A DNA stretch of 26,305 bases from a virus. The position numbers and the translations under genes are program-made. Location: IMG/VR virus record IMGVR_UViG_3300005511_000066, positions 1-26,305 of that record; one strand, written 5' to 3'. Numbering within the stretch: the stretch's first letter is position 1; each line of letters starts with the position of its first letter. A model generated the notes under the pieces. It searched no databases and was not told the origin of the DNA. It saw nothing but the letters and a program-made list of their open reading frames with translations. Shown here piece by piece: positions 244 through 26,305 of the stretch.

Positions 244-915
244 ATGAATGCATTCAAACTGACCCAGGCTGACGTAGGCCGTAAAGTTATAAATAGTCGT
301 GGAGACGAGGGTTACATCGTCTCGTACTGCGAATTTGAAGACGGTGAGAATTTTCGCATCGGCAAAGAAAAGACCCGAAGCTACGATGACTATTGGGTGA
401 ATGAGCGCGGACGGAGAGAGGTATTAACCCGGCCAGAAATCATAAATTTTGCAGCCGAGGGAACATCAACAGAGGAAACGCCAACGCTCCAGGCAGCGAA
501 GTACTACCGGACCCGGGACGGTCGGAAGGCATTCGTGGTCGGTATTGGAGCTCCCTTCCGACCCGACGATGAGGATCAACAAGTTGTAGGCTGGATTGAC
601 GGCCAGAACCGCGTGATGACTTGGGCGATTAATGGGACCCACATACTTCATAGGCAGTCGAACGCCGACATTGTGAGTGCGTGGAAAGAACCGAAGCGCA
701 TCAAGGGGTGGTTGAACGTATATTCTGAGGAATCGGATCACCCGTATATTTCACGCGTTGTGCTTTTCGGGACTACCGTGAAAGTCAGCACCTATGCAAA
801 AACCACCAAAAGCGATGCTGATCGCGCGGCTTCCTATTTTCCGGAACTCAAGCGTATCGCCTGCATCGAGATCGACATCCTTGAGGGCGAAGGTCTCAAC
901 GGGGAGGTGGCGTAA
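244..915 (+). CDS. Phage hypothetical protein with repeated small beta modules
   Basis: A 223-residue soluble protein with no catalytic motif that I recognise. Three parts can be told apart. Residues 8-60 have a turn-rich region around DVGRKVINSRGDEGYIV. Residues 86-150 contain YYRTRDGRKAFVVGI followed by VVGWIDGQNRVMTWAINGTH. The C-terminal part begins KRIKGWLNVYSE and ends in RIACIEIDILEGEG. The YRTRDGRKA block and the WLNVY...RIACIEI ending are recurrent in hypothetical phage proteins of alphaproteobacteria, from general memory of the family. The gene overlaps the next start by one base (TAATG), so the two are probably translated together. Confidence 0.7.
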   Translation: MNAFKLTQADVGRKVINSRGDEGYIVSYCEFEDGENFRIGKEKTRSYDDYWVNERGRREVLTRPEIINFAAEGTSTEETPTLQAAKYYRTRDGRKAFVVGIGAPFRPDDEDQQVVGWIDGQNRVMTWAINGTHILHRQSNADIVSAWKEPKRIKGWLNVYSEESDHPYISRVVLFGTTVKVSTYAKTTKSDADRAASYFPELKRIACIEIDILEGEGLNGEVA

Positions 916-1106
916 TGATTTACGTAGTATGCTACTTCTGCGGCTTCATGGTGCTTCTCATTGCGCTCACGGCATATGACGAAGCAAACGGAATCGGGGT
1001 GCGCGACGCGCGTAAAAACTTCTGGGGCGCTTTGGTCTGGCCCCTGATATTAGTGATCGCCACTGGACTCCTTATTGGTAGGGCTCAACGGAAGTCCGGG
1101 CGATGA
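915..1106 (+). CDS. Small two-helix membrane protein, 63 aa
   Basis: This 63-residue protein starts inside the stop codon of the gene before it (TAATG) and overlaps the next gene by an ATGA junction. It must be translated by coupling. It has two hydrophobic segments, residues 1-19 (MIYVVCYFCGFMVLLIALT) and about 37-54 (FWGALVWPLILVIATGLL), joined by a charged loop, and ends in a basic tail (RAQRKSGR). This is a hairpin membrane protein with a cytoplasmic positive tail. No family is recognised. A role in membrane remodelling or exclusion is possible but unproven. Confidence 0.6.
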   Translation: MIYVVCYFCGFMVLLIALTAYDEANGIGVRDARKNFWGALVWPLILVIATGLLIGRAQRKSGR

Positions 1107-1498
1107 AGCTCAAATCCCTCCTGAACTGGATCGCTCCCCAGCCCGAAGCAACACCCTCTGGCCGGATCATCAAGCGCCTTATTCGTCGTAACCCGCCGAA
1201 GACTCAGACCGTCAGCCAAACGGGCGTGCAAGCCCGCGCCATCCATCACCTGATTGCGCACGGGCGCATTGATGCCATGACCATTCAACGCATGGGAACG
1301 ACTGACGCGCGCAAGATGCTGACACGCATGCGCCGCCTCGGCCTCCTCTTTGCTGCGGACGACATCAATGGCCACTTCCGCAGGCAGAATGCGTCCGGAA
1401 GCGGATACCACCGTGTCCATCTCTGGACGGGCAAAGTGCCAGCCAACTGGGCGACGCCAAAGGTTGAGCGCCGCAAGCGTGTGCGGGGAGGCCGGTGA
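1103..1498 (+). CDS. Helix-turn-helix (winged-helix type) phage protein
   Basis: A basic 131-residue protein. Residues 39-80 (VSQTGVQARAIHHLIAHGRI, then TIQRMGTTDARKMLTRMRRL) fit a small winged-helix fold: a helix, a short linker, a recognition helix and a strand. The pattern resembles the HTH_39 type often found in phages. After it, residues 100-116 carry SGYHRVHLWTGKVP. Both termini are rich in arginine and lysine, which suits DNA binding. The start overlaps the preceding stop (ATGA) and its TGA overlaps the next ATG, so it lies in the middle of a coupled operon. It may regulate the cassette or process DNA; the target is unknown. Confidence 0.6.
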   Translation: MKLKSLLNWIAPQPEATPSGRIIKRLIRRNPPKTQTVSQTGVQARAIHHLIAHGRIDAMTIQRMGTTDARKMLTRMRRLGLLFAADDINGHFRRQNASGSGYHRVHLWTGKVPANWATPKVERRKRVRGGR

Positions 1499-1845: not shown

Positions 1846-2106
1846 GTGAAATTCGATACCGTGAAAGTCGTTACTCGGGAGGCGTTCCTCGAACACCTCG
1901 TGGGCATCGTCGAGAGCAACCATACTAAGAGTAAAAACGGCAGTAAGCGCGGGGGTATTCGCACTACTGCTGGCCTCTACGGGGTTCATCCTACCGAAAT
2001 ATCTAATGTGCTGGCCGGGGTTCTGCGTCCCACCAAGAAATTACTTGAACATGAGGGGCTGGAAGCGGTGACCGTATATGTCCGGAAGGAGAAGCGCGAT
2101 GCGTAG
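1846..2106 (+). CDS. Small helix-turn-helix regulator
   Basis: An 86-residue basic protein. Its C-terminal half (GGIRTTAGLYGVHPTEISNV, then LAGVLRPTKKLLEHEGLEAV and YVRKEKRDA) matches the shape of short phage XRE/YdaS-like proteins: a helix, a turn, the recognition helix HPTEISNVLAG, and a C-terminal strand. The start is uncertain. GTG at 1846 has only a weak ribosome site; GTG at 1861 would remove five residues and keep the domain. An ATG at 1844 in another frame stops at once. The last eight bases overlap the lipoprotein gene. It may control this cassette, but no operator can be assigned. Confidence 0.6.
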   Translation: MKFDTVKVVTREAFLEHLVGIVESNHTKSKNGSKRGGIRTTAGLYGVHPTEISNVLAGVLRPTKKLLEHEGLEAVTVYVRKEKRDA

Positions 2107-3436: not shown

Positions 3437-3838
3437 GTGAAGAAGACCAGCGGCCGAGCAGCGGAGATGCGTCCAGATGGGATGCCCGTTGGCACACCGT
3501 TCAAGCCCGGACAGTCGGGTAATCCAGCAGGACTTCCTAAAGGCTTCGTCAGCATCAAGTCAGAGCTTCAAAAGCTCATAAATCTCGTCCTGAAGGGCGA
3601 GCATAACCCCCTTACAGAACTAGATGAGGACATGCCGGTCGGCCGCAAGATTGCGCTGAACCTTGTCATGAAGGCCGTTGCAGACGGTGACTTGCTTGCC
3701 GCGCTCAAGATCATGGAGCAGCTGGACGGGAAGGCGGCGCAGTCCGTCAACCTCGGCGGACAGGAAGACAATCCGATCGAGTTGAACAGCAAGCTTGAGG
3801 TGGTCTTGGTAAAGCCGAAGGAAAGCTCCGGTGATTGA
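3437..3838 (+). CDS. Small terminase subunit-like protein (DUF5681 N-terminus)
   Basis: Residues 20-40 contain GTPFKPGQSGNPAGLPKG, the signature of DUF5681, a short N-terminal segment usual in phage proteins encoded beside the large terminase. The rest is helical and charged (ELDEDMPVGRKIALNLVMKA, then DLLAALKIMEQLDGKAAQSV). The TGA overlaps the start of the large terminase, which supports a packaging role: recognising phage DNA and loading the motor. GTG at 3437 gives 133 residues; an ATG at 3464 would give 124 and keep the motif. The assignment rests on the motif and position. Confidence 0.7.
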   Translation: MKKTSGRAAEMRPDGMPVGTPFKPGQSGNPAGLPKGFVSIKSELQKLINLVLKGEHNPLTELDEDMPVGRKIALNLVMKAVADGDLLAALKIMEQLDGKAAQSVNLGGQEDNPIELNSKLEVVLVKPKESSGD

Positions 3839-5109
3839 ACCGAATCGAGATTCCGGAGGCGTTTCAGGGCTTTCTTGAGCCCCATCGGTACAAAACTGCC
3901 TTTGGGGGTCGCGGAGGTGCGAAGAGTCGGACGATCGGCAGAATCCTTGTCCATGTAGCAGCGCGACAGCCTGAACTTGTCGTTTGTGGCCGGGAATTCC
4001 AGAACAGCATTGACGACAGCGTTTACCGGCTTCTTGAGAACACCATCAGGAAGGACCAACTTCCTAACTATAAGTTCACCAAAACCAGCATCGAGAATAC
4101 GAAGACCGGAAGCGAGTTTGTCTTTAAGGGGCTCGCCAAGCTCGACGGCGTCAGCATTAAGTCCCTTGAAGGGGCGACAAAGCTCTGGATCGAAGAAGGC
4201 CAGAACATCAGTCACGGGACGATGGACAACGTCTTCCCGACGATCCGTGAAGCTGGGTCGGAGATCTGGACGAGCTTTAACACCACTGTCGAGTCGGCTC
4301 CGGTCTACCAGCGCCTGGTGCTGAACCCGCACCCGGACAGCCTCATCATTAAGGTCAACTGGGATAGCAATCCGTGGTTTCCGAAGGAGCTGGATGAAGA
4401 GCGCCTGCACATGTTGGCGACGGACCCGGAAAAATATCGGAATATCTGGGATGGCTATCCGCTCAGCTTCGCAGAAGGTGCTTATTGGCGAAAGGAGTTC
4501 GAGGCGCTGGAACGTGCGGGCCGCATCGGTGATGTGCCATACAATCCATCCCGTCCCCTTTATGTGTGGTTCGACCTGAGCCATTCCGCCAGCGGCAAGG
4601 GTGATCCCCACGCCATTTGGTTTATCCAGCCTACGGATACCGGAACGTTTGACATCATTGATTATTGGGAAGGCAACAACTGTTCGCTGCCCGACGTGGT
4701 GAAGGATGTGCTTATGGGGCGGGGCTACAGCATCGCGACTGTCTTCCTGCCACATGACGGCGAGAACGTGAACAGCCATTCCGGCATGAGCGATGCCGAC
4801 CTCGTCCGGAGTTTTGGCTTCAAAGTGGAAGTTATCGAGCGGACGAAGGATGTTGAGCGCGATCTCAACAACGTGCGTCTGATCCTGCCTCGCTGTCGGT
4901 TCGATGCCGTAAAAACGAAGGCGGGGCTCGCGGCGCTTAAGAACCACCGCCGCGCCCTCGATGAGAAGTCCGGGCTATGGAAATATGTCCACGACTGGAC
5001 CAGCCACGGCGCTTCCGGGTTCCGTGGGTTTGCGATCGAGCATCACCGGATGGCGGTGACGGGTAGTCAAGTGCGCACGCGTCGGAGCCGTAGCGCGTGG
5101 ACTGTTTAA
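3835..5109 (+). CDS. terL: Terminase large subunit (packaging ATPase and nuclease)
   Basis: This is the motor that pumps DNA through the portal into the prohead. Residues 24-31 (GGRGGAKS) are the Walker A loop, and LWIEEGQ with E120-E121 looks like Walker B. The nuclease half has FDLSHSAS (D247) and VFLPHDGEN (D308). The closing motif reads HDWTSHGASGFRGF, where relatives usually have an aspartate four residues from the glycine-rich turn; here that position (about 394) is serine. The TTG start at 3835 is forced, because a stop lies directly upstream and the conserved start (IEIPEAFQGFLEPHRYK) begins at once. AAGGAAAG at 3818-3825 is the ribosome site. It overlaps the small terminase by four bases. 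Confidence 0.93.
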   Translation: MNRIEIPEAFQGFLEPHRYKTAFGGRGGAKSRTIGRILVHVAARQPELVVCGREFQNSIDDSVYRLLENTIRKDQLPNYKFTKTSIENTKTGSEFVFKGLAKLDGVSIKSLEGATKLWIEEGQNISHGTMDNVFPTIREAGSEIWTSFNTTVESAPVYQRLVLNPHPDSLIIKVNWDSNPWFPKELDEERLHMLATDPEKYRNIWDGYPLSFAEGAYWRKEFEALERAGRIGDVPYNPSRPLYVWFDLSHSASGKGDPHAIWFIQPTDTGTFDIIDYWEGNNCSLPDVVKDVLMGRGYSIATVFLPHDGENVNSHSGMSDADLVRSFGFKVEVIERTKDVERDLNNVRLILPRCRFDAVKTKAGLAALKNHRRALDEKSGLWKYVHDWTSHGASGFRGFAIEHHRMAVTGSQVRTRRSRSAWTV

Positions 5110-5485: not shown

Positions 5486-7374
5486 ACACGATCGACTGGC
5501 GCGATACCCGGAACGAAGCAGACCGCGCACAATATGCGCGGGAACTGTGTGAAAGCTTCTTAGCTAATCCGCAGTATTGCGCATGGTTCGATGAAGCGGC
5601 CGAATGCTTCGACTTCGATGAAAGCCGTCAGTGGACTGAAGAGGAAGAAGCTGATCTGATCGACAACGGGATGGTTCCTTATGTGTCGAACCAGATCAGC
5701 TTCAGGATCGACAATGTCAGTGGATCTGAGGTCCTTACAAGAACACGCCTGAAGTTTACGGCCCGCTCCCTGGCAGAAACTGCTCTGACCTCGGCGCAGG
5801 TGCTGACTGATCTGGTGCTTTTCCTGCAAGAGCGGAACGGAAGCAGCTCGAAATGGTCGCAGGCCATGCGAAAAGCCCGTGTCTGCGGGTTGGCATGGAA
5901 CCACCTCGTGCCGACTAACGACACCATTGAGGAGCATATCCCAAGCTCACTGGATGTCGTCTACGATCCGCTCGATATGACCATCGACTTCAGCAACAGC
6001 CGTGGGCGTGGGTTGGTGGCATGGTACACGCGCGATGAGATGCTCCGGAAGTATCCGGGAAAAGCCAAAGAGATCGACACGGCTATGTCGAGCTGGCGTG
6101 GTCTAGGTGGCGCGTACTGCGATCTGAAGGCTCCGGCTGGAATCAGAAGCCAGCGCATGACGTTTGCCGGGTGCGGATATTTCGACAAGTCCAGCAAGAA
6201 GCTCATGCTTGTTCGCTTTTACTATCGGGTGCCGAAGACGTTTTATACCTACACGTCCAAAGAGGGCATGATCGTCAACACCTTTTACAAGGCGGAAGCC
6301 GAGAAGGAATCCAGCAAGAAGCGCGGCGGCTACAGCAAGAACGAGGGCTATCAGGTCCGGTGCTGCGTTTTCTCAGGCTCCGTGGTCTTTGACGAATTCG
6401 AATACCCGTATCAGCTGGATTATTATCGCGGCGCCATTCCCATGACGCCTGTTTGTCTAAAGCGTGAGGAGAACACCGGTATCCCGTACGGCATGATCCG
6501 TGCGGTCAAAGATGACCAGAAAATGTACAACAAGAAGATGTCGAAGCTGAATTGGTACCTTTCAGCCCGCCAGGTCGTGATGGACGCGAACGCCGTGGAC
6601 GACGTGGATGCTCTCGCCAGTGAGGTAGCGCGGCCGGACGGCATCATAATGAAGCGGAAGGGTGCCGAGCTGGAAATCCAGAAGAATCTGGACGAGGTTG
6701 CTGCGCACTCTGCCTCTCTGCAAATGCACATCGCCAACATCGAACGCAATATGGGCGTCTTTGACGAGTCCGCAGGTGCGCAGACAAACGCCACAAGCGG
6801 ACGGGCCATTCAAGCCCGAAAGAGTGGCACCAATACCACCCAAGCCCTTCCGATCGACCTTCTGCGCCTTGCCAAGCGCAATTCAGGCCGACTTATGGCT
6901 ATCATGGCCCAAATGAAGTTTGACGAGCGGATGGTGTTTACGATCCGTGGCGACGACGGGCAGCCTCAACAGCGGATGATTGGTCCATCCCTCGGCGCTG
7001 ATGGGAAGCCTGAAAAGGACCCGGACGGTAACATCGTTCGTCAGGCTGATATTCGAGGCATCACCTTCGACGTGGACCTCATTGAATCCCCTGATGTCGC
7101 TAGCACGACAGAGGAGGAAAAGGATCGCCTCGCAGATATGTATGCGGCCGGTCAGCGTCCCGACATGCTTCCGCCTGAAGCCCTGATCTCCATGGGGTTC
7201 TCCGAATCCAGCCACATCGTCCAGTACGCAAAACAGAATTTCCAGCAACAGCTTCAGCAGGCCCAAGTCGCGCTGAAAGAGAACGAGCAGCTTAAGGCTA
7301 CGCTCGCAAAGATTCAGGGAGCGTCAAACCCTCCCTCAATGCCTACCGGCGGCGTGCCCGGTAATGTCCAATAA
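5482..7374 (+). CDS. Portal protein, P22-like; natural start codon absent
   Basis: The portal forms the twelve-part ring through which DNA enters and leaves the head. The frame is open from 5476 to 7374. Protein-like sequence begins at NTIDWRDTRNEADRAQYARE (5485 on), followed by FDEAAECFDFDESRQWTEEE and VPYVSNQISFRIDNVSGSE, typical of P22-type portals. The C-terminal tail is glutamine-rich (AKQNFQQQLQQAQ) and should form the barrel helices. No ATG, GTG or TTG precedes the conserved N-terminus: the codon at 5482 is GTA, where GTG would have overlapped the previous stop. The first ATG, at 5671, would remove about 60 conserved residues. Either initiation is unusual, the start is mutated, or there is a base error. 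Family assignment is firm; the start is not. Confidence 0.85.
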   Translation, partial: VNTIDWRDTRNEADRAQYARELCESFLANPQYCAWFDEAAECFDFDESRQWTEEEEADLIDNGMVPYVSNQISFRIDNVSGSEVLTRTRLKFTARSLAETALTSAQVLTDLVLFLQERNGSSSKWSQAMRKARVCGLAWNHLVPTNDTIEEHIPSSLDVVYDPLDMTIDFSNSRGRGLVAWYTRDEMLRKYPGKAKEIDTAMSSWRGLGGAYCDLKAPAGIRSQRMTFAGCGYFDKSSKKLMLVRFYYRVPKTFYTYTSKEGMIVNTFYKAEAEKESSKKRGGYSKNEGYQVRCCVFSGSVVFDEFEYPYQLDYYRGAIPMTPVCLKREENTGIPYGMIRAVKDDQKMYNKKMSKLNWYLSARQVVMDANAVDDVDALASEVARPDGIIMKRKGAELEIQKNLDEVAAHSASLQMHIANIERNMGVFDESAGAQTNATSGRAIQARKSGTNTTQALPIDLLRLAKRNSGRLMAIMAQMKFDERMVFTIRGDDGQPQQRMIGPSLGADGKPEKDPDGNIVRQADIRGITFDVDLIESPDVASTTEEEKDRLADMYAAGQRPDMLPPEALISMGFSESSHIVQYAKQNFQQQLQQAQVALKENEQLKATLAKIQGASNPPSMPTGGVPGNVQ

Positions 7375-8260: not shown

Positions 8261-9391
8261 GTGACAACCGCGAATATTCCAGCCGGTAGCAATAACGCCC
8301 GGCAACAATGGGCGGATACGGCCCTTGAGTATCACTTCAGCGAGTTTCCGCTCTTGAACGTGATGAACCCCGGCAACGGTGGCGACACTCTCGAAGGCTG
8401 TATTGTCAAAGAGACATTCGATGCTGGTGAAGGCGATGCAAAGACCTACACGTTCCGTGTCCCGGTCAGTACCAGTACGGTGAAACAAGGTGATGCCCGT
8501 ATCCAGGGGACGGGTAAGTCGATAACGTACGGAAACGACAAGATCACGCTGCAAGAGTACGGCGACGAACTGCAGGTGAAGAACCGCACGATGAACAAGC
8601 AGCGTTCCAAGCTTGACGTTGACAAGGACACCAGCAAAGAACTCGGTAGTCAGTCTGGCCGCTTCGCGATGGTGAAGACGATGGCTGCGCTGACAGACGT
8701 TACCCGTGGCCGGACGCAGAAGCGCTATCTGTATGGTTCGGCTGAGGCCAACTATAACGCGACTCACGCGACGGCGCTGGCAAACGTTGATGCTACCGAC
8801 GACAAGCTTACGCTTGCTCTGCTCGGGGACGCTATCAACAAATTCAAGACGCAGTCCAGCGGCCTTGGATTCATGCGCCCAGCAAAGGTGGAACTGAGGG
8901 ACGGTACCACTGTCGAGAAGTTCGTCGGTCTCTTCCATGGCAACGCGATCCGCGACCTGAAGAAGGACCCGGATTTTAAGACCTCCGTGTACCAGAAAGA
9001 CAATCCACTGTTCGACGTAATCACAGGCTCCAACTTTGTCGGCGAATACGAAGGGTGTTTGATTTACGCTCTCCTGCCGGTAGACGGGGAGAATGACACT
9101 CTCTTGCTGAGTGGTGTCGGCGCAGGCGGTATCAATGTCGCGCACAACCTTATTCTTGGCATCGGCGCTGCCGTTCTTGCCTATGGTAAGGAAGCCGAAC
9201 CGGATACCAATATCAAATACAGCATGAGTAACAACGGCAACATGATTGTCACCAAGGTCGGTGATGACCACGGCCGGGATACTCTCTGGGCATGGCGTAA
9301 CGTGATGGCCTTCCAGAAGCTCGTTGACGACAAAACCAACGAAGACTTCGGCGTGGGCCACCTGTTCACAAGCGCGAAGGGCGGCCTCTAA
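8261..9391 (+). CDS. Major capsid protein (N4 gp56/DUF4043-like)
   Basis: A 376-residue protein directly after the scaffold. It begins with a helix-rich arm (NNARQQWADTALEYHFSEFP), then ITYGNDKITLQEYGDELQVK. The central part includes RGRTQKRYLYGSAEANYNAT and FVGLFHGNAIRDLKKDPDFK. The end is beta-rich (NGNMIVTKVGDDHGRDTLWA, NEDFGVGHLFTSAK). These features suggest the HK97-fold coat proteins grouped with N4 gp56 (DUF4043), as judged by memory of the family. The GTG start has AAAGGG eight bases upstream. A strong hairpin follows the stop, in keeping with its need for high expression. Confidence 0.82.
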   Translation: MTTANIPAGSNNARQQWADTALEYHFSEFPLLNVMNPGNGGDTLEGCIVKETFDAGEGDAKTYTFRVPVSTSTVKQGDARIQGTGKSITYGNDKITLQEYGDELQVKNRTMNKQRSKLDVDKDTSKELGSQSGRFAMVKTMAALTDVTRGRTQKRYLYGSAEANYNATHATALANVDATDDKLTLALLGDAINKFKTQSSGLGFMRPAKVELRDGTTVEKFVGLFHGNAIRDLKKDPDFKTSVYQKDNPLFDVITGSNFVGEYEGCLIYALLPVDGENDTLLLSGVGAGGINVAHNLILGIGAAVLAYGKEAEPDTNIKYSMSNNGNMIVTKVGDDHGRDTLWAWRNVMAFQKLVDDKTNEDFGVGHLFTSAKGGL

Positions 9392-17709: not shown

Positions 17710-19959
17710 ATGTACCAGAAGCTCCTCGCCACCTTGAAGCCATCCGCCTCGACCGGCGTCCGCTGGGATTTGTGGTACGCCAACAATACCGGCTTCTACA
17801 TGAGCGAGGGTAGCGAGGTAGCTGTTAAAATCACGGTGGCCAATCCGACGCCGGGATGCAGCATTCGTTGTTACGTAACTGGTGGAGCCGCCTCAGAGAA
17901 CAACAACAACTGGTCTAGGAGCTTCACGGCGATGTGCACCGAAGAGGCGGCACGGCATACCGGCGTTACCTACACGCCGCAAGGCGACAGTAGCCACCCG
18001 TCCAGCCGGACAGGGATATTCACCTTCGCAGCCGATTACGATGGTCAACCCATCATTCTGGCCCGCACCGCTCAATACGACCTGACCACCGAAGGCACGG
18101 TCCAGCTGGATGTCTGGATCGACAACCCCAGCAGTGGCTCCATCCTCCATGGAATTGTGAGCCTCCAGATTGCCGATGTGTCGGTCACGCCTCCCGGCAC
18201 ACCGACTTTCCGGGTCAACTCTCCCGGTGGGTTCATCAATGAGGGGGATACGGTCAATATCACTCTCCAGACAGAGAATATTGCGCCCGGAACGACCTGC
18301 ACCGTCCAGATCGTCAACACGGCGGCAGCTGCGGCAGACTGGATTGAAGCGAACCACGACCAATGGGCAGCGGCCTGTGCGGCGGCCAACTGCACATACA
18401 CCATTCGAACCACGTCCTCTGGCCTGATCACGTTCGGATCGGGATACAGCGATGCCAATCCTATCCACTACACGCGCACATCTAAGGCGGACAGTCTGAC
18501 GGAAGCGTCCTCCGAGCAGGTGGACTGGATCTTCGCCAATTTCAGTGATCCGACGATGCGGATTTACTCCAGCGCGGTGTCTTACTGGCTGATCGACACG
18601 AGCCAGAACCCGACGCCCCCGGCATTCCAGATCAAGATGTCCCCGAGTAACCCGAATCCCGGCGATACAATCACGTACACACTGAAATCCGAGACGGGAG
18701 CTACAGGCGGCAGGACGGTGGTGTTTGCTCAAGGCGGGGATGCCAGCGACGCCGACTTCAACATCAGCCTGGACGATCTACTGACGAATCTCGCTGCCAC
18801 AGAATCGGCCAACCTGTCTTACGACACTTCTACCAATACCCTGACTGTTTCCGCCAGCTGGACCGGCACGTCCAGCACGACCCGCATCCTGAACCCGGCC
18901 ACGACGGCAACAAAGCACACCATGAGCCTGACCTCGGCAGGCGGTGGGGCTATTTTGGTCGTTGCGGACGATGTTTGCTACATCGGCGGCTCGGGCGCGG
19001 TCACGCCGTTCACCTATGCCTCGGGCATCAATCTTTCCGGTGCGGATTTCGGCGCATTCCTCATCAACTCGAATACGGTCCTCGATTACTACGCCACGAA
19101 GGATTTCCATATCTCACGCTTCCCGGTGAAGTGGGAATACCTGCAAAGCACGGCATTCGGCTCGCTTAATAGCACGAATACCAACGCCTTCATCGCGATG
19201 GTGAAATACTGGACCAACACCAAGGGCCGGTTTGCGATTGTAGACCTGCACAGCTATTCGAAGCTCAACAACGTTCAGATCGGCATCACGGGAAGTCTCG
19301 TGCGCCCGCAGGCGCTGTGTGACTTGTGGGTCAAGCTGGTCAACGCGATGCAAGCCGCGAGCGTTGATATGAGCAAGGTGATCCTCGATCTCATGAACGA
19401 GCCAACGAACCTCGCTGCTGACTGGCGGCGGTATGCTCAGGCGGCAACCAATGCAATCCGTGCCCGCACGACCTTCACCGGCATGATTATGGTCGAAGGC
19501 GTCAGTGGTTCGAGCGCGATGAACTGGAGCGCGAACAAGAACGACAGCGAGCTGGTGAAGTTTTACGACCCGGCCAACAATTACGCTTTCCAGCCGCACC
19601 AGTACCTTGATTCCAATGGCAGCGGGACATTGGGAAGCTGCGCGGTTAACAGCGCCTCCCGGATCTCCTCGATTACCAACTGGGCTAGGACGAACGGGAA
19701 AAAGCTGTTCCTTGGCGAAATTGCATGGGGAGATGACAGTATTGCAGGAAATGAACAGTGCGGGGTCGAGTATCCGCAGATCATGACGCGGCTGACCGTA
19801 TCAGATGCCGATGTATGGATAGGTTACACCTATTGGGGCGCAGGTCAGTTCTGGGCAGCGGGATATCCCTTCAAGCTCGATCCATCGGCATATGATGGCT
19901 CGGTGCCAGACACGCAGCAGATGTATGAGTTGTTGCTGTACAACCGATTTACAGCTTAG
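17710..19959 (+). CDS. Tailspike with GH5 endoglucanase domain
   Basis: A 749-residue virion enzyme. Residues about 25-430 hold three tandem beta modules beginning SEGSEVAVKITVANPTPG, NEGDTVNITLQTENIAPG and NPGDTITYTLKSETGATG. Residues about 435-749 are a glycoside hydrolase family 5 domain: FHISRFPVKWEYLQ, FAIVDLHSYSKL, the acid/base Glu564 in LDLMNEPTN, an aromatic FQPHQYLDSNG, the nucleophile Glu670 in LFLGEIAWGDD, and WIGYTYWGAGQFW. GH5 enzymes of this kind cut beta-1,4-glucans such as cellulose. As a spike it would degrade a host exopolysaccharide or cellulose coat during adsorption. It lacks a signal peptide, which fits a virion part rather than a secreted cellulase. The exact substrate is not shown by sequence. 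Confidence 0.9.
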   Translation: MYQKLLATLKPSASTGVRWDLWYANNTGFYMSEGSEVAVKITVANPTPGCSIRCYVTGGAASENNNNWSRSFTAMCTEEAARHTGVTYTPQGDSSHPSSRTGIFTFAADYDGQPIILARTAQYDLTTEGTVQLDVWIDNPSSGSILHGIVSLQIADVSVTPPGTPTFRVNSPGGFINEGDTVNITLQTENIAPGTTCTVQIVNTAAAAADWIEANHDQWAAACAAANCTYTIRTTSSGLITFGSGYSDANPIHYTRTSKADSLTEASSEQVDWIFANFSDPTMRIYSSAVSYWLIDTSQNPTPPAFQIKMSPSNPNPGDTITYTLKSETGATGGRTVVFAQGGDASDADFNISLDDLLTNLAATESANLSYDTSTNTLTVSASWTGTSSTTRILNPATTATKHTMSLTSAGGGAILVVADDVCYIGGSGAVTPFTYASGINLSGADFGAFLINSNTVLDYYATKDFHISRFPVKWEYLQSTAFGSLNSTNTNAFIAMVKYWTNTKGRFAIVDLHSYSKLNNVQIGITGSLVRPQALCDLWVKLVNAMQAASVDMSKVILDLMNEPTNLAADWRRYAQAATNAIRARTTFTGMIMVEGVSGSSAMNWSANKNDSELVKFYDPANNYAFQPHQYLDSNGSGTLGSCAVNSASRISSITNWARTNGKKLFLGEIAWGDDSIAGNEQCGVEYPQIMTRLTVSDADVWIGYTYWGAGQFWAAGYPFKLDPSAYDGSVPDTQQMYELLLYNRFTA

Positions 19960-21723: not shown

Positions 21724-22125
21724 ATGCGCAAACTCAACCTCCGCCGCATCCATACCGCCAACGGCGCAACGATCGGCGTTCTGAGCGGTCTTTCCCACAC
21801 TCTTTATACGCTGGAAGAGGCTTGGCGAGAAAACAAGCCGAAGATCAGCTCGATTCCGGCCGGCACTTATAAGTGCATACCTCATGGCTGGGAGCCCGGA
21901 GCTGTCGTTTCTAAGCCGAAGGTCTGGCAGCTTCAGAACGTACCCGGACGCTCCGCCATTCTCATTCACGTGGGCAATACCACAAAGGACACCGAAGGCT
22001 GCATCCTAGCAGGGATGGGTATGATGGTCACGCAAACCCTATCCTCGATATCGGATAGCCACATGGCGATCGAACAGATGCGCAAGGAAATCGGTGAAAA
22101 CCCCTTCCTGCTCACGATCGAATAG
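21724..22125 (+). CDS. DUF5675 protein, possible peptidoglycan enzyme
   Basis: 133 residues from the ATG at 21724, one base after the preceding stop. LEEAWRENKPKISSIPAGTY, then NVPGRSAILIHVGNTTKDTE and GCIL, are hallmarks of DUF5675, a family usual in phage lysis regions. The IHVGN...DTEGCI block (His82, Cys93) resembles the catalytic histidine-cysteine motif of YkuD L,D-transpeptidases. A role in cutting or altering peptidoglycan is therefore likely by inference, and no other stand-alone endolysin is visible nearby. A strong terminator follows at 22188-22216. Confidence 0.8.
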   Translation: MRKLNLRRIHTANGATIGVLSGLSHTLYTLEEAWRENKPKISSIPAGTYKCIPHGWEPGAVVSKPKVWQLQNVPGRSAILIHVGNTTKDTEGCILAGMGMMVTQTLSSISDSHMAIEQMRKEIGENPFLLTIE

Positions 22126-23332: not shown

Positions 23333-23503
23333 ATGGAACAAAACTCCCTCGCATTTGAAGGCTTCGGCATCAAGGCAACGGCCTTGGGCGCATTGCCAGT
23401 CGCCGGGCTTCTGACGCTGCTAGCGATTTACATCATCACACGGACCATTCTGCGGCACCGGGAGGTTTCGCAACGGCCTCGGCGCAACAAGCTGCCGAAA
23501 TGA
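23333..23503 (+). CDS. Small single-pass membrane protein, 56 aa
   Basis: The ATG at 23333 follows AAGGAG (23317-23322). The product starts MEQNSLAFEGFGIKATALGA, has one clear membrane helix (LPVAGLLTLLAIYIITRTIL) and ends in a basic tail (RHREVSQRPRRNKLPK), giving an N-out, C-in topology. It is the last plus-strand gene before two minus-strand genes, and its stop runs into a shared terminator hairpin. No family is recognised. Confidence 0.6.
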   Translation: MEQNSLAFEGFGIKATALGALPVAGLLTLLAIYIITRTILRHREVSQRPRRNKLPK

Positions 23504-23540: not shown

Positions 23541-23846
23541 CTAGGCAGCAAGCTTGTCGCGGAGGGCGAAGCCCATCAGCGGCCAAATTTGACGGATTGC
23601 ATCTTCACGAGCGAATTTCTCGCCAAGCTCTTGGTTAAAGTTGTCCGGGTCAGCAGGAGCTGATTTACCGAGAACAACATATCCATTTTTCATGACCACA
23701 ACGGCGATGGTCATGTAATCGGCAGCAGCAGGCCGAATATAATCTACAGTTCCGATTGAATCCTCAATGTCCGCAAGAGAAACCCGGTGAGGCGTCTTTT
23801 GAACGGCGGCTGATTCAGCGTCGGAGATTTGCAGGGAAGAAGTCAT
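23541..23846 (-). CDS. Phage gp49/gp66 family protein
   Basis: 101 residues. The pattern VSLADIEDSIGTVDYIRPAA, then AVVVMKNGYVVLGKSAPADP and LGEKFAREDAIRQIWPLMGF (end ALRDKLAA), matches the N4 gp49/Sf6 gene 66 family. These are small soluble proteins of unknown role, widespread in phages and plasmids. It is read leftwards, away from the lysis genes, with its own terminator. The inverted repeat GTGCAG...CTGCAC upstream may be an operator. Confidence 0.85.
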   Translation of the reverse strand: MTSSLQISDAESAAVQKTPHRVSLADIEDSIGTVDYIRPAAADYMTIAVVVMKNGYVVLGKSAPADPDNFNQELGEKFAREDAIRQIWPLMGFALRDKLAA

Positions 23847-23872
23847 TTTCTATCATTTCATTGTTTCTACCT

Positions 23873-23892
23873 GTGCAGTAATAGGTCTGCAC
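23873..23892 (-). promoter_or_regulatory. Possible operator upstream of gp49/66 gene
   Basis: GTGCAG (23873-23878) and CTGCAC (23887-23892) form a perfect inverted repeat around eight bases. It lies 27 bases upstream of the start at 23846, where a promoter would be expected. The -35 and -10 boxes are not clear. Confidence 0.3.
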
Positions 23893-23900
23893 GAAAACAT

Positions 23901-23929
23901 CTTGCCACCTCTAGTTGAGAGGTGGCAAG
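23901..23929 (-). terminator. Terminator for ArdC gene
   Basis: A perfect 12-bp stem, CTTGCCACCTCT with AGAGGTGGCAAG, and a five-base loop. On the minus strand it is followed by ATGTTTTCG. It separates the ArdC transcript from the gp49/66 gene. Confidence 0.85.
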
Positions 23930-23938
23930 AAATTATCG

Positions 23939-24838
23939 CTACTCGGCAGCTTCACGCTGTTGCTGTTCTTCGACTTCCGGAAACGCCTTCCTCCAAAGCC
24001 AGTCTGATGCCTGTCCGGCATAGCTGGCCGCGTTGAAGATCGCCCGGTTGTCCTCCTTCAGAACCTTCAGCCAACTCTCGATGTAGCTGGCTGACCGGAA
24101 CGAGGCCGGGATGTCGAGCCGGGCGCAGAGGAAGGCAGAACCTAACTCGGCGCAAAGCTCTTCGCGGGCATAAGCGGTATCCCCGAACTTCTTCCCGAAT
24201 TGCCGGTCAAGGCGGTTCTTATGGCCGCTGGCATGGATCAATTCATGATTCATGGTTCCCCAGTAGGCTTCCTCGCTCTCGAACTGATTGGCATAGGGCA
24301 TGACCACCTCGTCGCCGCCCGGATAGTAGGCTGCGCGGTTGCCGCCGTTCTTGATCTTGATGCCGGTGCCCTTCACGAAGTCGGACGCCTTGGTGTAGAT
24401 CTCGACCTGGCTCTCAGGCCGCTCCTGCTGTTGCAGGTATTTCGCCGGGACATCGTCAAGCTGGTCCAGCCCGAAAACTGGGTAGGTCTTCACGATTGTC
24501 GTCTGCTTATCCTCCCCGGATTCCTCGTCCTTCTTCGTGCCGTGCTTGGTGAAGATGACGTGGGTTGCCTTCTCGCCCTTCCTGACCTTGGCACCGATGG
24601 CGTTGATCTGGTGGTAGGTGGCGTATTGCAGATTGCTGAAGCCCCGCTGTGACGCGGCAAGCCACAACAAGAGGATGTTTCCACCGCTATACATCCGGCC
24701 GGAAACTAGGTTGCTGGGTATCATGCCGACGCCCTTGAGCTTGGCATCCTTCCACGGGCGTACCCACGGCGGTGTGCCTTCCTCAATCTGGCGGATTACC
24801 TCGGCTGTGACCGACGCATAAAGATCTGCTGTTTTCAT
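23939..24838 (-). CDS. ardC: ArdC-type antirestriction protein
   Basis: 299 residues, the usual size of ArdC. Residues 1-125 are the N-terminal ssDNA-binding domain (DUF1738): YASVTAEVIRQIEEGTPPWV, then WKDAKLKGVGMIPSNLVSGR. The C-terminal half is a zincin metallopeptidase-like domain with HELIHASGH at 198-206 (zinc ligands His198, His202 and probably a glutamate near 227-231 in REELCAELGSAF). In conjugative plasmids ArdC protects incoming DNA from restriction in the new host. It is transcribed away from the coupling-protein gene. Its Shine-Dalgarno sits in a hairpin. Identification is firm from the motif and domain order. Confidence 0.93.
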   Translation of the reverse strand: MKTADLYASVTAEVIRQIEEGTPPWVRPWKDAKLKGVGMIPSNLVSGRMYSGGNILLLWLAASQRGFSNLQYATYHQINAIGAKVRKGEKATHVIFTKHGTKKDEESGEDKQTTIVKTYPVFGLDQLDDVPAKYLQQQERPESQVEIYTKASDFVKGTGIKIKNGGNRAAYYPGGDEVVMPYANQFESEEAYWGTMNHELIHASGHKNRLDRQFGKKFGDTAYAREELCAELGSAFLCARLDIPASFRSASYIESWLKVLKEDNRAIFNAASYAGQASDWLWRKAFPEVEEQQQREAAE

Positions 24839-24843
24839 GATTT

Positions 24844-24857
24844 GCCTCGCAAGAGGC
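24844..24857 (-). promoter_or_regulatory. Hairpin covering the ArdC ribosome binding site
   Basis: In the ArdC leader, GCCTC-TTGC-GAGGC (minus strand) folds so that the Shine-Dalgarno GAGG, about eight bases before the ATG at 24838, lies in the 3' arm. This should reduce translation until the hairpin is opened. Confidence 0.45.
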
Positions 24858-24869
24858 CGCGAAAGATCA

Positions 24870-24925
24870 TCTAGCCAAAGGTATCCCTCGGGCCTGCGAA
24901 AAGTGTGAAGATTGTTCTGGCTAGA
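24870..24925. promoter_or_regulatory. Inverted repeat between divergent conjugation genes
   Basis: TCTAGCCA (24870-24877) and TGGCTAGA (24918-24925) form a perfect eight-base inverted repeat, 40 bases apart, between ArdC and the coupling protein. It could be a divided operator controlling both promoters. No -35/-10 pair is certain. Confidence 0.35.
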
Positions 24926-24942
24926 CGTGAGAAGGTTACGCC

Positions 24943-26305
24943 ATGAAGTTCTATGAAGCCATTACTATATGGCCGCTTACGGTTGCTTGCCGTTTCTTTT
25001 GGTACTTCTTTATTTCCGTTTTGTGGAACTGCTGGGAGGCGCTTAGATTTCCCTACGCTACTTGGCAGAGGTACAAAAATCCTCCACAGCCTACCCACGG
25101 GAACGCTCGATACGCTGATTTCAAGACACTGCGGAAAAAGGGCTACCTGAAGCCTGTTGGATTCCTCGCCTGCATTCTCCGTAGGGGATATTTTGGCAAG
25201 CCTGTGAAGGTCTACACCCGTAGTGAGCGTAGCGTCCTGATTATGGCTCCCCCCGGAGCTGGGAAGTCGCAGCACATCATTGCCGACCTGAAAGACGTGG
25301 CTAAGAGACCCTATCCCGTACTTCCGTTCCTACTGGTCGGAGACGCCGGGAACGAGCTGTTCACAGCGACGGGACCGATATTCAAATCTGTCGGTTATCA
25401 ACTTTCAAAGATCGACGGCGTCGAGCCAGATCTTTTTACCAAGTACGACATTCTCAGCGGGCTCTCTCCCAAGTTCATCGACCGCTTCAAATTCCAGACA
25501 CGTCTGAAGGGCATCTGCGAGGCCATGGTCGCCGAAGAGCCCAATTCAAAGCATCCCCACTTCGTCCAGTTCGCAAGGCTTTTGCTCAAATGCGTGATCG
25601 CCGTCGATGTCCTCTACGAAGGCAACGCTCGGCCGATCTGTGACCTTGTCGATATCCTGTTCGATGACGAGGCGCGGGAGGAGATGCTCAAGCGGGCAAA
25701 GGCCTATAACGACGTCTTCATTTCAAAGACCCTGAAGACGATGCAGGATATGCAGAAGAACGGTGAGGGGGTTTCGATGATGAGCACGGCGCTTCGGAAG
25801 CTGGAGCCGTGGTCAGACCCGGCGATCCGGGAGATCACGACGTTCGGATACGATGAGAACGGAAAGTACTATCGCGGCTGGAACTTCACCCAGATGTACA
25901 GCCAGGAGAAACCGGTCGTCCTCTACATCCGAACTGGCTACGAGGACGTGGGCGGAGCGCTGGCGAGAATCATCTACAGCAACGCGGTGAATGAGGTCTC
26001 GGCTATCTGGGACGAAACCAACAAGCCGCTGCGCCGTGAGCTACTGATTTACGTTGACGAGGCCGGGTTGGCTGGCAACGTGTCAGCCTTCATCAAAGCG
26101 TTCAGCCGCCTGCGTAAGGTGTGGGTCCGACTCCGCCTGTGCTTTGTCGGCATGGACGAGCTGAAAAAGGTTTACCCTGACGATTACAAAACGCTTCTGA
26201 ACGGGTGCGACATGACCGTGTTTGGTGGCGGCAACGATACCGATCTTTTCAAATACGCAAGCGATCTCGCAGGGGAGTTCACGGTCCAGAGCAAGAGCGA
26301 GAGTG
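24943..26305 (+). CDS. VirD4/TraG-type coupling ATPase, cut by window end
   Basis: The frame stays open from the ATG at 24943 to the window edge (454 codons seen), so it is a partial gene. The first 35 residues are hydrophobic and tryptophan-rich (ITIWPLTVACRFFWYFFISV), a short membrane anchor. THGNARYADFKTLRKKGYL matches the conserved HGxARxA block of VirD4/TraG proteins. Walker A is APPGAGKS (residues 102-109), and Walker B is LLIYVDEAGLAG with Asp372 and Glu373. Coupling proteins bring the relaxase-bound DNA strand to a type IV secretion channel. GAGAAGG precedes the start. It is divergent from ArdC. No relaxase or secretion genes are in view. Confidence 0.88.
   Translation, partial: MKFYEAITIWPLTVACRFFWYFFISVLWNCWEALRFPYATWQRYKNPPQPTHGNARYADFKTLRKKGYLKPVGFLACILRRGYFGKPVKVYTRSERSVLIMAPPGAGKSQHIIADLKDVAKRPYPVLPFLLVGDAGNELFTATGPIFKSVGYQLSKIDGVEPDLFTKYDILSGLSPKFIDRFKFQTRLKGICEAMVAEEPNSKHPHFVQFARLLLKCVIAVDVLYEGNARPICDLVDILFDDEAREEMLKRAKAYNDVFISKTLKTMQDMQKNGEGVSMMSTALRKLEPWSDPAIREITTFGYDENGKYYRGWNFTQMYSQEKPVVLYIRTGYEDVGGALARIIYSNAVNEVSAIWDETNKPLRRELLIYVDEAGLAGNVSAFIKAFSRLRKVWVRLRLCFVGMDELKKVYPDDYKTLLNGCDMTVFGGGNDTDLFKYASDLAGEFTVQSKSES

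Follow-up and report, generated by a model that had tools for sequence, protein, structure and literature searches.

The present analysis indicates that the stretch of DNA studied here (the window; 26,305 bases, IMG/VR record IMGVR_UViG_3300005511_000066, a fragment classed as linear) comes from a group of integrative temperate phages that very probably act as mobilizable elements too, depending on a mating channel supplied by a helper. Judging from its sequence and those of its relatives, the window most plausibly comes from an integrative temperate podovirus equipped with its own mobilization cassette of MOBQ type, and covers about 70% of that genome, from its middle part. On the best reading, such phages are not phage-plasmids, are not self-conjugative, and are not prophages inside an ICE.

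Phage genes of the window and gene order in its relatives

In the window, a P22-like podovirus is followed by two divergent genes, encoding ArdC on the minus strand and a VirD4-type coupling protein (T4CP) on the plus strand, and the contig end falls inside the latter. The terminase large subunit (3835..5109, +) matches Terminase_3 (1.1e-29) and phrog_3717, the P22-like portal protein (5671..7374, +) matches P22_portal (1.3e-74), and the major head protein (8261..9391, +) matches phrog_334 (8e-19), so that the P22-type portal and the associated head genes that characterize P22-like podoviruses are both present. The tail genes are followed by a 749-aa protein (17710-19959, +) with a GH5 cellulase domain (Pfam Cellulase 1.4e-29, residues 448-711), which is 90% identical in relative G008 and is probably a tail-associated glycan hydrolase.

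To the left of the cassette region lies a presumed lysis gene encoding a DUF5675 protein (21724..22125, +; Pfam 4.9e-24), with 44-84% identity in six relatives. Small genes, some of them common to relatives, occupy the space between its end (22125) and ArdC (23939). Among them are a 56-aa ORF (23333..23503, +) common to G008 (86%) and G004 (77%) and, between the lysis genes and the cassette, a Phage_gp49_66 family protein (23541..23846, -; Pfam 3.7e-20) for which no counterpart was found in the nine relatives. At the opposite end of the window, three early genes are shared with relatives: 244..915 (+) has 27-44% identity in seven relatives with different virion types, 1103..1498 (+) has 29-60% in G001, G002, G004, and G005 and 80% over 30 aa in G008, and 1846..2106 (+) has 36-58% in five records.

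The preliminary description had reported P22-like virion genes, with which the portal, terminase, and head matches agree, and an ArdC with a VirD4/TraG ATPase, both of which are matched by Pfam domains as detailed below. It had placed ArdC about 1.5 kb from the late block; the succession is right, but the distance is about 1.8 kb when counted from the DUF5675 gene. Its remark that no integrase separates the two blocks also holds, as none is encoded within the 26,305 bases, and the relatives place this gene about 3.5-4 kb beyond the T4CP.

Profile scans of IMG/VR yielded nine further records, namely G001 (2874155637_000003), G002 (3300022740_000044), G003 (2744054906_000003), G004 (2838686498_000003), G005 (2517093000_000002), G006 (3300037471_000898), G007 (3300048073_000103), G008 (643348569_000003), and G009 (2935793552_000002). 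These are mostly predicted proviruses or fragments, G006 alone being closed. Two scans of genome contigs and two single-sequence viral scans gave no further loci, and the MobA-like matches among phage records comprised four unannotated contigs of 4-9 kb and two cyanophage records; the group carrying the cassette is rare in the collections searched. In all nine relatives the late genes are followed, in the same order and polarity, by ArdC (-), T4CP (+), a relaxase (-), small genes, and a tyrosine integrase, the last being present once per record (in L016 and L017 as identified by reading). In most relatives an HTH_17 protein is found just before the integrase. A chimeric assembly of the window was also considered and rejected, since the cassette order recurs in the relatives and the window is colinear with G008.

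The closed genome of G006 (37,445 b) carries at its ends a direct repeat of 127 bp without mismatches, which fits a closed circle. Around this circle follow TerS, TerL, a P22-like portal (7e-125), head, Hc3, tail, and lysis genes, the full cassette, the integrase, and then replication genes, including a DnaB helicase, so that the cassette lies between the lysis and the early genes. Because replication genes stand on the far side of the integrase in this closed genome, the cassette belongs to the phage. The comparison with G008 points in the same direction: 14 segments of its DNA align colinearly with the window, most of them at 71-84% identity, and the record runs on through T4CP, relaxase, and integrase. 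By this map, the window is short of about 5.8 kb on the left and 5 kb on the right, and we infer that its own MobA/MobL relaxase, oriT, HTH/excisionase-like gene, and integrase lie beyond the contig end.

An alternative arrangement has to be considered here, in which the contig runs across the junction between a prophage and an independent integrative mobilizable element (IME) or ICE, the two being inserted in tandem at a single chromosomal site. Such an arrangement is quite improbable in view of the replication genes past the integrase of the G006 circle, of the single integrase per record, of the early genes likewise shared at the opposite end, and of a gene order after the late genes that is the same in ten records representing four or more virion types, even though the cassette and integrase sit at the record end in most relatives and Mesorhizobium commonly harbors IMEs with a virD4-like T4CP (PMC8627217).

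ArdC and the T4CP are the only window genes matched in all nine relatives; the virion genes are not. The virion modules of the window/G007/G008 type, G003, G006, G001/G002, and G004/G005 are not related to one another beyond weak similarities of terminase or tail, and siphovirus tape measure proteins occur in G001, G002, G004, G005, and G009. We lean toward the view that the lineage is defined by the mobilization cassette, the early genes, and the integrase rather than by the virion, podoviral and siphoviral modules being swapped around the cassette.

Two genes of the early regions can be mentioned here. G002 encodes an Erf-like single-strand annealing protein (L012:9161-9892, -; phrog_155 9.8e-45), which may partly account for module swapping. 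In G005, a 322-aa protein (L020:2492-3460, -) with a DUF4062 match (5.7e-30) and weak TIR similarity is a possible anti-phage defence gene.

ArdC, coupling protein, and the region between them

The ArdC protein (23939..24838, -) consists of an ssDNA-binding N domain (Pfam ArdcN 3.1e-33) and a zincin metallopeptidase domain (MPTase-PolyVal 1.5e-46), in which the HExxH zinc motif is present as HELIH; its matches in the nine relatives have 50-94% identity. The T4CP (24943..26304, +) matches T4SS-DNA_transf (2.2e-13; 50.4 bits vs a curated Pfam cut-off of 20.1) and TraG-D_C (1.7e-10; 41.3 vs 22 bits). Its ORF is open at the contig end, and by comparison about 60 C-terminal residues are absent. The Walker A and Walker B motifs are GAGKS and IYVDEA, respectively, and the profile matches in the PDB are Cag5 and TrwB. 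In the AlphaFold model, which is of modest confidence (pLDDT 64), a RecA-like AAD fold is found, the 36 best PDB matches by Foldseek being Cag-beta/VirD4 and TrwB (E 1e-8 to 1e-6). The T4CPs of the nine relatives are 28-61% identical to that of the window; no match was found among 50,697 phage records, and the nearest plasmid T4CP has only about 24% identity.

The divergent intergenic region (24839..24942) is kept in all six records compared (MAFFT alignment of the window and G001-G005) and contains the dyad TCTAGCC...GGCTAGA, whose arms covary in G001 (TCCAGC...GCTGGA). It is probably a two-way promoter/operator. As the most conserved non-coding stretch, it was also considered as a candidate oriT. 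This assignment was rejected, because it is the region upstream of the relaxase, and not the intergenic region, that varies with the relaxase class; the intergenic region is kept in G001 despite the different relaxase domain. The DNA match between G008 and the window extends at 84% across ArdC and the intergenic region and stops about 160 bases into the T4CP, and at the protein level the identity falls from 94% for ArdC to 52% for the T4CP. Such a drop suggests that recombination has occurred within the cassette at this point.

The codon differences between G004 and G005 (synonymous/nonsynonymous) are 86/1 for the T4CP, 39/2 for ArdC, and 67/21 for the relaxase, with dN/dS of about 0.01 for the T4CP and 0.1 for the relaxase. 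The cassette genes are under purifying selection, which is strong for the T4CP. This selection, together with the conserved oriT and a Walker A motif that is intact in all six T4CPs checked, makes it extremely improbable that the cassette represents decaying captured plasmid genes without function, a reading that could draw on the rarity of the group in the collections searched and on the incomplete T4CP ORF of the window.

Relaxase and predicted oriT

A relaxase to the right of the T4CP, which the preliminary description had proposed to look for, is present in all nine relatives. It is assigned to MobA/MobL by Pfam in G002, G003, and G006 (MobA_MobL 2.8e-12 to 5e-13) and by alignment or blastp to these proteins in the other six, and its profile matches the MOBQ nickase structure 4ht4. 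The structure model of the relaxase was of insufficient quality for use (pLDDT 63, and below 50 for the first 74 residues). Related relaxases are encoded by small plasmids of alphaproteobacteria, most of them with a T4CP gene nearby, which suggests alphaproteobacterial hosts for the phages as well.

Upstream of the relaxase gene, a hairpin and a nic-like sequence are found in 9/9 relatives, and we regard them as a predicted, oriT-like site of the MOBQ type. In class A (G002-G007, 6/9) the hairpin is directly followed by TAACTGCGC, while in class B (G001, G008, and G009, 3/9) ATAT and a variant sequence come next, a nic-like site clearly off the MOBQ consensus. The predicted class A nic lies at a G/C step, as exemplified by G006 (GACAATTCCCATGGAATTGTCTAACTGCG/CTATCC). 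In RSF1010 the layout is a hairpin followed by TAAGTGCG/CCC, the nic reference being CAGTTTCTCGAAGAGAAACCGGTAAGTGCG/CCCTCCC (PMC4814116). The MOBQ plasmid relatives have an oriT of their own with this same layout, in which GGGTTTC..GAAACCC or GGGTTTG..CAAACCC precedes ATAAGTGCGC upstream of the relaxase. Among 400 dinucleotide-shuffled whole records, 2 contain the motif with a stem of 6 or more, and compensatory changes are seen on both sides of the stem at pairs 4, 5, and 7 in G007 and at pair 5 in G004. Both motif and stem are absent from the window, which ends before the relaxase.

The oriT class tracks the nuclease (N) domain of the relaxase. The G001 protein is only about 42% identical to those of class A and is closest to that of G008 (48%). 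The C-terminal region is common to the relaxases of both classes, and we infer that it is the signal recognised by the T4CP.

Helper dependence, alternative roles, and known systems

The ATPase VirB4 of a mating-pair formation (Mpf) channel, the mark of a self-transmissible element, was found in none of the ten records, several of which may be incomplete but one of which, G006, is closed; the positive control genome was detected. Transfer would consequently need a helper, as it does in mobilizable elements that encode a relaxase and coupling protein themselves (PMC11389934).

The preliminary description had left a choice between a phage-plasmid and a prophage settled in a conjugative plasmid or ICE. 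Its core idea of a phage that itself carries conjugation genes is supported by nine further records, including the closed circular genome. The settled prophage is contradicted by the same phage-transfer gene order in ten records and in that closed genome. A phage-plasmid or self-conjugative phage found no support in the comparison, given one tyrosine integrase per relative beside the cassette and no VirB4 in any record. An extrachromosomal phage whose own Mpf and rep/par genes lie beyond the window would be in line with coupling proteins being typical of conjugative systems and with the two P1-like phage-plasmids that have a mob gene or oriT (PMC10879196). However, every relative has an integrase and none, closed G006 included, has VirB4, and neither the window nor L017 resembles any plasmid record at the DNA level, which renders this possibility very improbable.

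For the integrative, helper-dependent phages favored here, the following sequence of events can be proposed. The integrase, with the HTH protein, would excise the prophage as a circle, and the relaxase would nick the oriT just upstream of its own gene and remain bound to the strand. Because the phage has no channel of its own, its T4CP would dock the relaxase-bound strand on a mating channel supplied by a conjugative plasmid or ICE residing in the same cell. In the recipient, ArdC would shield the incoming single strand from restriction, and the strand would be recircularised, completed, and reintegrated by the integrase. The phage could in this way spread as particles or by hitch-hiking on conjugation, both the use of a helper and the transfer of the phage being predictions.

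It is also conceivable that the cassette is real phage cargo with another role, that is, interference with the T4SS of a resident plasmid or relaxase-started rolling-circle replication, without phage transfer. Phages often act on competing elements, and relaxases and rolling-circle initiators are related. Neither role, however, needs the full set of relaxase, cognate oriT, coupling protein, and ArdC, and a C-terminal domain common to relaxases with different nuclease domains is what is expected of a signal read by the T4CP. We thus consider such roles improbable.

CloDF13 is a known helper-dependent mobilizable plasmid with its own T4CP. MOBQ plasmids with their own T4CP resemble the phages described here in having a MobA/MobL relaxase, a VirD4-type T4CP, and an oriT of MOBQ layout beside the relaxase gene. 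In the phages, however, the T4CP and relaxase genes are convergent rather than divergent, and the cassette is part of a temperate phage genome that also encodes integrase, terminase, virion, and lysis proteins. IME/iMOB elements likewise have integrase, relaxase, oriT, T4CP, and helper dependence (the last predicted for the phages), to which the phages add a virion and lysis set. With P22-like podoviruses, the window and G006 have in common the P22 portal family, terminase, and head genes; they differ in the mobilization cassette, which a number of siphoviruses among the relatives also carry. Among published cases, P1-like phage-plasmids and their derived plasmids with mob or oriT come closest, joining phage and conjugation functions as well (PMC10879196). 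In that group mob/oriT are found mostly after loss of phage functions and on plasmids (PMC10879196), whereas here they form the conserved core of intact-looking integrative phages. The components are all known individually; no description of them combined into a conserved core of integrative phages turned up in the open-licence literature searched, the lack of a report in those papers being weak evidence of absence.

If the lineage reading is true, these would be mobilizable elements that also make particles and could move horizontally in two ways. Gene transfer by phages is usually considered separately from transfer by conjugative elements. A prophage with its own oriT, relaxase, T4CP, and ArdC could bypass a receptor-limited host range and reach recipients that particles cannot infect, and provirus-finding tools could mislabel such elements as phage-IME chimeras. 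The predicted oriT, the cognate relaxase classes, and the closed genome make dual-route transfer directly testable.

Two further features of the cassette region are worth mentioning. A 103-aa membrane-type protein without a Pfam match is encoded in the cassette of 9/9 relatives (L003:14540-14851 and counterparts) and mostly ends in GGSCG or GGTCG. Between relaxase and integrase, each relative has a minus-strand gene of 230-300 aa (e.g., L003:13016-13822, L007:13202-14095, and L008:13031-13729); these genes are mostly unrelated between records, and the slot looks like a cargo hot spot.
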